Shown here: positions 23,348-24,628 of the stretch, piece after piece
How the letters are laid out: each line of letters opens with the position of its first letter
Position numbering within the stretch: position 1 is the first letter of the stretch
From: Streptomyces sp. TG1A-60
Lineage (GTDB): Bacteria > Actinomycetota > Actinomycetes > Streptomycetales > Streptomycetaceae
Direction of reading: 5' to 3'
NCBI RefSeq assembly: GCF_037201975.1
Contig: NZ_CP147520.1
Span: 6,324,001-6,388,000, forward strand
DNA length: 64,000 nucleotides
Translations under genes and position numbers: made by a program
Notes under the pieces: model-generated
Told to the model about the DNA's origin: nothing
Databases searched by the model: none
The model's input: the letters and a program-made list of their open reading frames with translations, nothing else

Positions 23348-23454
23348 CGTCCCACCCCGTACCAAGCGCTCGTAAAGCCATCCGACCAGTGGTTTTGATG
23401 CTTTCTCTGCCTCGCTCTTTACCTAATCTTGGTGATTGGGGTACTCTTTTCGGA

Positions 23455-23622
23455 CGGAGGGGAGTACTCCCTACATGCTGCGGCGCACCCGTCAATACGG
23501 ATCGATCCGATCCCGGGGCGTCGGCCCGGCGACACCAGGCGGTGTGGAACGCCCTGGAGGACCGGGTGGAAGAGACCTCCGGCAGCGACGACGCTGAATT
23601 TGCCGTTACGTACTGCCGGAGG
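23455..23622 (+). promoter_or_regulatory. yybP-ykoY (manganese) riboswitch with RBS-sequestering expression platform
   Basis: P1 is formed by CGGAGG (23455-23460) and CCTCCG (23576-23581). The conserved first loop GGGGAGTA follows directly after the 5' strand (about 23459-23466). CGTCAATACG (23490-23499) matches the conserved internal segment, and GGAAGAGACC (23568-23577) matches the conserved third-loop motif. Downstream, CCTCCGGCAG (23576-23585) is perfectly complementary to CTGCCGGAGG (23613-23622), which contains the ribosome-binding site of terC. When Mn2+ stabilises P1, the RBS would be released; without metal it would be paired. This aptamer class is known to precede TerC/Alx-type genes. 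Confidence 0.82.
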
Positions 23623-23626
23623 CGCA

Positions 23627-24628
23627 GTGGATGTTTCCACGACCCTATGGGTCCTGACAGTTGTGGGCCTTGCCGCCCTCATCGCGGTCGACTTCTTCAT
23701 CGGCCGCAAGCCACATGACGTGTCCATCAAGGAAGCCGGAATCTGGACGGTCGTCTGGATCGTCCTGGCCGCCCTGTTCGGACTCGGGCTGTTCGTCCTC
23801 GCCGGCGGCCAGCCGGCCGGAGAGTTCTTCGCGGGCTTCATCACCGAGAAGTCCCTGAGCGTCGACAACCTCTTCGTCTTCGTCCTGATCATGGCGAAGT
23901 TCTCGGTGCCCTCGCAGTACCAGCAGCGGGTGCTGCTGGTCGGTGTGCTCATAGCTCTGGTGCTGCGCGCCATATTCATCGCCGCGGGCGCGGCGATCAT
24001 CGCCAGCTTCTCCTGGGTCTTCTACATCTTCGGCGCGTTCCTGATCTACACCGCCTGGAAGCTGATCCAGGAGGCCAGGGCGGACGAGCCGGAGGAGGAG
24101 TACGAGGAGAACAAGCTCCTCAAGGCCGTCGAGAAGCGCTTCGGTGTCGCCGACCGCTACCACGGCACCAAGCTGTGGATCGAGCAGAACGGCAAGCGCG
24201 TCATGACGCCGATGCTGGTCGTGATGCTCGCCATCGGTAGCACGGACATCCTCTTCGCATTGGACTCCATTCCGGCGATCTTCGGCCTGACCCAGGACCC
24301 GTACATCGTCTTCACGGCCAACGCGTTCGCGCTCATGGGCCTGCGACAGCTGTACTTCCTCATCGGCGGTCTGCTGAAGAAGCTGGTCCACCTGTCCTAC
24401 GGTCTGTCCGTGATCCTCGGCTTCATCGGCGTGAAGCTGGTGCTGCACGCCCTGCACGAGTCCGGGGTGCATGTCCCCGAGATCTCCATCCCGGTGTCGC
24501 TCGGCGTGATCTGCGCGGTCCTGGTCATCACCACGATCAGCAGCCTGATCGCCTCCAAGAAGCAGGCGGCGGCCGAGGCCGACCAGGAGAAGGACGAAGA
24601 CGCCGAGAAGGACAGCGTCGAGGCCTGA
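23627..24628 (+). CDS. TerC/Alx-family integral membrane protein
   Basis: A 333-residue protein with about nine membrane helices. Family signatures are EKSLSVDNLFVFVLIMAKF near residue 70 and AIGSTDILFALDSIPAIFG near 205, with the intramembrane acidic residues typical of TerC/Alx/YkoY. Relatives affect manganese homeostasis or metallate exported proteins. The C-terminus is an acidic Glu/Lys/Asp-rich tail. GTG 23627 lies just after GGAGG, which is part of the riboswitch switch helix. The upstream frame is aptamer, not protein. Confidence 0.88.
   Translation: MDVSTTLWVLTVVGLAALIAVDFFIGRKPHDVSIKEAGIWTVVWIVLAALFGLGLFVLAGGQPAGEFFAGFITEKSLSVDNLFVFVLIMAKFSVPSQYQQRVLLVGVLIALVLRAIFIAAGAAIIASFSWVFYIFGAFLIYTAWKLIQEARADEPEEEYEENKLLKAVEKRFGVADRYHGTKLWIEQNGKRVMTPMLVVMLAIGSTDILFALDSIPAIFGLTQDPYIVFTANAFALMGLRQLYFLIGGLLKKLVHLSYGLSVILGFIGVKLVLHALHESGVHVPEISIPVSLGVICAVLVITTISSLIASKKQAAAEADQEKDEDAEKDSVEA

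Follow-up and report, generated by a model that had tools for sequence, protein, structure and literature searches.

Riboswitches of the yybP-ykoY (Mn2+) class share two loops, L1 and L3, and studies of the L. lactis and X. oryzae aptamers locate Mn2+ at an invariant L3 adenine (UCA41AUUC in L. lactis) and show the metal stabilising the P1.1 switch helix (PMC6754395). Both aptamers fold into a four-way junction, and the X. oryzae one was tested as a transcription antitermination switch (PMC6754395). In E. coli, reporters of both alx and mntP are Mn-responsive, and more so at alkaline pH, and the mntP switch turns on translation initiation (PMC9603457). The alx element also controls translation, in front of a TerC-family gene (PMC3874183, PMC9603457). 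TerC proteins of B. subtilis are described as having Mn efflux activity and as metalating exported enzymes (PMC10550928). In V. parahaemolyticus, mneA, of the GDT1/UPF0016 type, and a terC gene are both Mn-induced and lie behind predicted yybP-ykoY leaders, the mechanism being left open in that study (PMC13274385). The class has been called widespread with tellurium-resistance genes, the actinobacterial sets of that account being those of Corynebacteriaceae and Mycobacteriaceae only (PMC3766115). The leader of Corynebacterium glutamicum cg2157 (terC) was listed in 2013 as RF00080 at 49.13 bits, and its transcript was observed (PMC3890552).

The window, a stretch of 64,000 nucleotides from Streptomyces sp. 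TG1A-60, contains a comparable leader in front of a terC gene. With high confidence we read positions 23455-23629 as a translational ON riboswitch of the yybP-ykoY (Mn2+) class, belonging to the subtype of E. coli alx. Very probably manganese is what this RNA switch senses, the ribosome start site becoming free when the metal is abundant. On re-reading the sequence, the motifs quoted in the first-pass annotation were all confirmed at their positions: GGGGAGTA at 23459-23466, CGTCAATACG at 23490-23499 and GGAAGAGACC at 23568-23577, with the P1 strands CGGAGG (23455-23460) and CCTCCG (23576-23581). The aptamer spans 23455-23582, and the whole switch includes the ribosome-binding site (RBS) and ends at 23629. 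CCTCCGGCAG at 23576-23585 faces CTGCCGGAGG at 23613-23622 in 10 pairs without interruption, and the latter strand contains the RBS GGAGG (23618-23622), with the GTG start of terC at 23627, 4 nt further on. The product is a TerC protein (Pfam PF03741, 184 bits) whose identity with E. coli Alx is 38.6% across 308 aligned positions. Folding of the 196-nt leader gave z = -2.31, which taken alone is modest evidence. Upstream of the element, the blocks CTTTAC and TAct.T are conserved in 53 aligned upstream regions, and transcription would start near 23454. The features are as follows.

23418..23447, + strand: putative terC promoter (TTTACC, 18 nt, TACTCT), read from the sequence; it would start the RNA near P1
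23455..23460, + strand: 5' strand of P1, the switch helix, CGGAGG; invariant in 53/53 element-bearing Streptomyces leaders; in distant ones it and the 3' strand change in concert
23461..23466, + strand: 5' strand of the L1 loop, GGAGTA; invariant in 43/43, with GGGAGTA in 70/70 distant matches
23467..23470, + strand: 5' strand of P1.2, CTCC, the first position here a C-A mismatch; supported by its pairing in distant leaders
23482..23491, + strand: 5' strand of P3 (GGCG, CA, CCCG), from the structure alignment
23492..23498, + strand: L3 loop, UCAAUAC, with an invariant UCA
23499..23513, + strand: P3.2 hairpin, GGATC/GATCC, from the structure alignment
23514..23522, + strand: 3' strand of P3 (CGGG, G, CGTC), from the structure alignment
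23524..23567, + strand: P4 hairpin, GCCC (23524-23527) with GGGT (23564-23567), interior variable, from the structure alignment
23568..23575, + strand: 3' strand of P1.2, GGAA, and 3' strand of L1, GAGA, from the motif-anchored count
23576..23581, + strand: 3' strand of P1, CCTCCG, common to the ON and OFF folds, from covariation with the 5' strand and from the anti-RBS helix
23576..23585, + strand: anti-RBS strand CCTCCGGCAG of the OFF state, from the conserved helix and shuffles
23583..23596, + strand: hairpin CAGCG-ACGA-CGCTG, predicted in the ON fold by energy folding
23613..23622, + strand: RBS strand CTGCCGGAGG, including GGAGG, from complementarity to the anti-RBS strand
23627..24628, + strand: terC, GTG start, 333 aa (PF03741)

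Compared with the described members, the window's L1 carries the 5' GGGGAGUA and 3' (G/A)AGACC of the class, and helices corresponding to P1.1, P1.2, P3.1 and P3.2 surround L1 and L3. The X. oryzae probe target for 3' L1/P1.1 likewise begins GAGACC (PMC6754395). The L1 and L3 core is shared with the L. lactis and X. oryzae aptamers, L3 reading UCAAUAC in the window and UCA41AU43UC in L. lactis (PMC6754395). The invariant L3 adenine that contacts Mn2+ through N7 is present, A23494 being the positional equivalent of L. lactis A41 by sequence alone. The P2 hairpin between P1.2 and P3, found in the crystallised four-way-junction subtype, is absent, and a variable unpaired linker lies there. The alx leader too aligns without P2, so the missing hairpin separates subtypes and does not exclude membership of the class. 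By covariance model the alx leader has the same aptamer, with GGGGAGUA, CGUCANUAC and GAGACC, and what we propose for the window shares with alx the TerC-family gene and the control of translation. The RBS trap differs: in the window it is one long hairpin between the P1 3' strand and the RBS, whereas the alx model has several alternative hairpins and two pause sites (PMC3874183). The E. coli mntP leader belongs to the same aptamer class and, like the proposed switch, acts on translation initiation, but it has another L3 type (GUCAACAUAC), a P2-like hairpin (by eye) and another exporter family downstream. The likeness to C. glutamicum cg2157, an actinobacterial yybP-ykoY leader before terC, is taken from its listing (PMC3890552).

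The first-pass annotation had expected a match to RF00080, and none was obtained. The Rfam 15 model reported nothing in the window at its gathering cut-off of 45 bits, and relaxing the threshold to E 10 brought up nothing in the leader region; the rest of the 7.83-Mb single-contig genome yielded no more than chance-level matches. In none of 296 genomes searched in the class did a match exceed the cut-off, and 7 genomes had one at E <= 0.001. The same model finds members in control genomes (2/14 over cut-off), although it left the E. coli alx locus unmatched at E up to 0.01. It scored E. coli mntP at 41.6 bits, under the cut-off, and showed no signal at E 0.001 in the C. glutamicum control genome. 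Because alx is unmatched and mntP falls below the cut-off, a negative RF00080 result says little here, and we rejected it both as a test of membership and as sound evidence against the call. The standard annotation model overlooks a large branch of Mn2+-class switches. Weak matches of other models, to snoRNA, NLPC-P60 and flavivirus elements, were below their cut-offs and were set down to chance.

Two covariance models of our own were used. R1 was built from 43 Streptomyces aptamers, the window's own included, and R2 from 70 actinobacterial leaders, excluding the window; the only R2 training leader from the window's genus is a GDT1 leader (L079). R2 matched the window at 69.2 bits (E 8e-17), although R1, used to find and align its training leaders, does contain the window's sequence. 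The E. coli MG1655 alx leader (L171:1376-1501) was matched by R2 at 53.1 bits (E 2.5e-12) and by R1 at 36.8 bits (E 3.5e-5), and neither model reported the mntP leader at E up to 10. Homology to an Mn2+-responsive member thus runs through alx, not mntP. Together with aptamer covariation across Actinomycetes and the gene context, these alx matches bear out the yybP-ykoY class call of the first-pass annotation.

We examined the conservation of the element in 61 Streptomyces genomes, all of which have a TerC match, by reading the sequence that precedes the best one in each. Judged by motifs, the element lies 5' of terC in 53 of the 61. In the other eight (L055, L059, L060, L062, L064, L065, L066, L069) the aptamer has been lost to varying degree. 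L060 retains only the CCTCCGGC/GCCGGAGG platform, that is, the anti-RBS hairpin; in L062 both L1 and L3 are gone, but P1-like arms and the platform survive; and in L055, L059 and L066 little remains except the RBS. The decay forms in L060 and L062 predict fixed expression states. The element was absent from the second terC copies that we read (L046, L057, L058, L061, L063, L070), three of which (L046, L057, L070) have a short remnant like GGTGGA(A/G)GA, with the rest of the aptamer gone. Among the 80 closest TerC relatives in a named collection, 78 of which bear the name Streptomyces, 79 carry the aptamer.

For the structure test within Streptomyces we used 43 of the 52 distinct leaders. With the hand-built structure, 96.2% of cells were paired compared to 94.5% after shuffling, and both sides had changed in 26 cells compared to 11.5. 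The L3 UCA was invariant (43/43). Covariation of the aptamer in this set is positive but limited, since P1 never varies. The RNAalifold consensus of the same set contained a small L1 hairpin (columns 7-9 with 14-16), which we set aside in favour of P1.2, a choice later backed by the motif-anchored count below.

A search of 394 genomes of the class with R1 gave a match at E <= 0.01 in 229 genomes, representing 77 of 137 genera. From the listed matches we chose 60 loci, and to these added 7 loci weakly found by RF00080; the 67 loci yielded 70 matches, at least one in each. In this distant set 97.4% of cells were paired, both sides had changed in 21 of 27 pairs, and the covariation score was 0.625 compared to 0.220 for shuffled alignments, with 0/500 shuffles as high, a statistic biased by the fitting of the alignment to the model. 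P1.2 could be counted without fitting, from the L1 motifs only, and its four positions were paired in 51, 54, 54 and 54 of 54 leaders. Six fully paired versions of it occurred (UCCC/GGGA, CUUC/GAAG, UUCC/GGAA, CUCC/GGAG, CCCC/GGGG, CCUC/GAGG). Within Streptomyces the first P1.2 position forms no standard pair in 31 of 43 leaders.

The proposal that the 3' strand of P1 can trap the RBS gained support from the helix that the two strands form. In 300 mononucleotide shuffles, no helix after the 3' P1 strand was as long as the 10 bp of the window. All 53 element-bearing Streptomyces leaders have an uninterrupted helix of 8-10 bp that begins at the first base of the anti-RBS strand and ends at most 12 nt before the start codon; at a threshold of at least 7 bp, dinucleotide shuffles gave a mean of 1.1 and a maximum of 5 such leaders (200 rounds). 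In the set of 80 close TerC relatives the helix reached at least 8 bp in 77 of 78 scored leaders and 7 bp in the remaining one (G-U allowed), and exact 8-nt arms were present in 71 of 76 motif-matched leaders, more if G-U or other partners are allowed. In one Streptomyces leader (L068) most of the platform loop is lost and both 8-nt arms are kept. These counts contradict the objection, foreseen in the first-pass annotation, that the anti-RBS helix might not be conserved in close relatives.

Covariation between 23576-23585 and 23613-23622 depended on the range of comparison. Inside Streptomyces the 8-bp core never varies, and the helix is nearly invariant and hence uninformative as covariation evidence. 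At the level of the class, however, compensated arms appear: CCTCGAAC/GTTCGAGG, CCTTCGGC/GCCGAAGG, CCTCAGA/TCTGAGG and CCTTCGGCAGC/GCTGCCGAAGG. The P1 5' strand changes along with them (CGAGG, GAAGG), as expected if one strand pairs with two partners in turn. A helix of at least 7 bp was found in 40 of 54 distant terC leaders compared to a shuffle mean of 3.5 and maximum of 9 (200 rounds), and was missing in the other 14, so that the anti-RBS platform is not universal among distant terC leaders. The RBS-trap mechanism is supported by this conserved, compensating helix and by an aptamer strand that is complementary to the RBS and excluded from that pairing when in P1.

The two folds are mutually exclusive, as had been proposed, but they are far from balanced in the energy model. 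The unconstrained fold had a predicted energy of -95.1 kcal/mol and paired the RBS, whose unpaired probability was 0.001; with the aptamer imposed, the energy was -83.5 kcal/mol and the RBS was 43% unpaired. Since these predicted energies favour the OFF state by 11.6 kcal/mol, a simple equilibrium toggle is unlikely, and this part of the original ON-switch proposal needs qualification. The gap is probably overestimated, loop motifs and bound metal being outside the model. Because the OFF fold is predicted to be so much more stable, the choice between ON and OFF is probably made co-transcriptionally, as reported for alx (PMC3874183). We envisage that nascent RNA from about 23454 folds P1, L1, P1.2, P3 with L3, and P4, and that Mn2+, with Mg2+, would dock L1 on L3 and keep P1 closed. 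With P1 held, CCTCCGGCAG would be barred from CTGCCGGAGG, the RBS would be accessible and TerC would be made. When Mn2+ is too low, CCTCCGGCAG would leave P1 and form the 10-bp hairpin over the RBS, blocking translation. The decision would have to fall before the RBS strand is synthesised. We infer Mn2+ as the ligand, the co-transcriptional timing and the direction of the response from the class, the folds and the gene context.

A rival reading puts another signal first. In an alx-like switch, alkaline pH could be the main cue, acting by way of RNA polymerase pauses, and Mn2+ would have a secondary or cooperative part. Alkaline pH alone moves E. coli alx, the closest characterised relative, which responds most to pH plus Mn (PMC9603457), and alx is described as a kinetic element controlled by pausing (PMC3874183), a behaviour that the large predicted OFF bias would suit. 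We nevertheless consider it unlikely that pH is the principal signal here, as the loop core that contacts Mn2+ does not vary in Streptomyces and the same type of aptamer occurs 5' of GDT1 genes.

It is less likely still that a yybP-ykoY-fold aptamer has been retuned to another divalent ion (Ca2+, Mg2+, Fe2+ or Co2+). Genes of the sodium/calcium-exchanger family do follow one Streptomyces copy (L257, PF01699) and two actinobacterial ones (L074, L075), and TerD-domain genes adjoin terC. Against this, the L3 UCA is kept, and with it the adenine that we equate with the Mn2+ contact, most of the genes found are terC and GDT1, and the V. vulnificus inner membrane protein gene yrbG is also under a predicted yybP-ykoY element (PMC13274385). 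That the leader is structured for a reason unrelated to riboswitches, for example as a protein-binding or RNA-stability element, would agree with the silence of RF00080, but is scarcely credible given the strength of the alx homology and the L1/L3 core held in common. A manganese-responsive ON switch is the most probable reading of the terC leader.

The first-pass annotation went further and tied the whole Ter module to manganese, which the arrangement of genes does not bear out: the switch acts in cis on terC alone, and the two TerD-domain genes (PF02342; 20666-21241 and 21287-23347), on the same strand, lie upstream of the element. The apparent tail of the second TerD-domain gene is also present 5' of terC in several relatives. 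The switch suggests why terC can respond to metal instead of tellurite.

Gene context outside the window pointed to a second target. TerC was downstream in 54 of the 60 chosen distant matches; six were not 5' of terC. R2 found 106 elements in 58 of the 61 Streptomyces genomes, of which 53 were terC leaders. Among the other 53, 51 are followed at 110-190 nt, on their own strand, by the first match to GDT1 (PF01169), a family of the Mn-exporter type, one is the copy before the exchanger-family gene (L257), and one (G009, C1:927295) has no recognised gene. In all, 59 of the 61 genomes contain a GDT1 match. To judge by gene family only (terC, GDT1), the elements would control Mn homeostasis genes. 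In the window's own genome R2 gave two confident elements, one before each of terC and GDT1, besides a third match whose E was 0.1; no MntP was found in this genome. Its GDT1 element (C1:5863127-5863234; L254:1221-1328) scored 44.2 bits with R2, has an mntP-like L3 (GUCGACACAC) and was missed by RF00080 as well. In that leader an 8-bp partner of the 3' P1 strand lies some 90 nt downstream of it and well ahead of the start codon, so the platform differs from that of terC.

The kind of switch is already known, and a yybP-ykoY leader before terC has been on record for C. glutamicum since 2013; what the records checked do not contain is the Streptomyces member and how broad the branch is. A literature search limited to open-licence papers found no earlier report of the element in Streptomyces, and Table 3 of an RNA-seq-backed Rfam survey of S. 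lividans TK24 names no RF00080 or manganese element (PMC8079986). The terC leader offers a candidate manganese sensor for Streptomyces, and the analysis yields two covariance models and a three-strand switch open to base-by-base testing. More tentatively, we suggest that this actinomycete Mn2+ riboswitch branch, unseen by Rfam 15, could define a small genus-wide Mn regulon, comprising the RBS-trapping kinetic switch of terC and the GDT1 exporter, which may co-sense alkaline pH like alx. It might also mark proteins so far unconnected with Mn, for example a Pfam-less Microbacterium 'cation-transporting ATPase' family.

Several other downstream genes deserve mention. Among the actinobacterial elements found weakly by RF00080 (L074-L080), GDT1 lies downstream in L078, L079 and L080 by Pfam and in L076 and L077 by resemblance, while L074 and L075 are those followed by exchanger-family genes. 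The leaders in L076, L077 and L078 have a hairpin and a T-run before the gene and by eye look transcriptional. Five of the 60 distant elements (L125, L126, L135, L139, L145) precede related proteins without a Pfam match, which are candidates for a new Mn-related family. The L126 protein has 579 relatives; of the 120 that were listed, those bearing a name are nearly all from Microbacterium, and many are called 'cation-transporting ATPase'. Finally, the element at L170:201-297 precedes a PGPGW transmembrane protein (PF09656).
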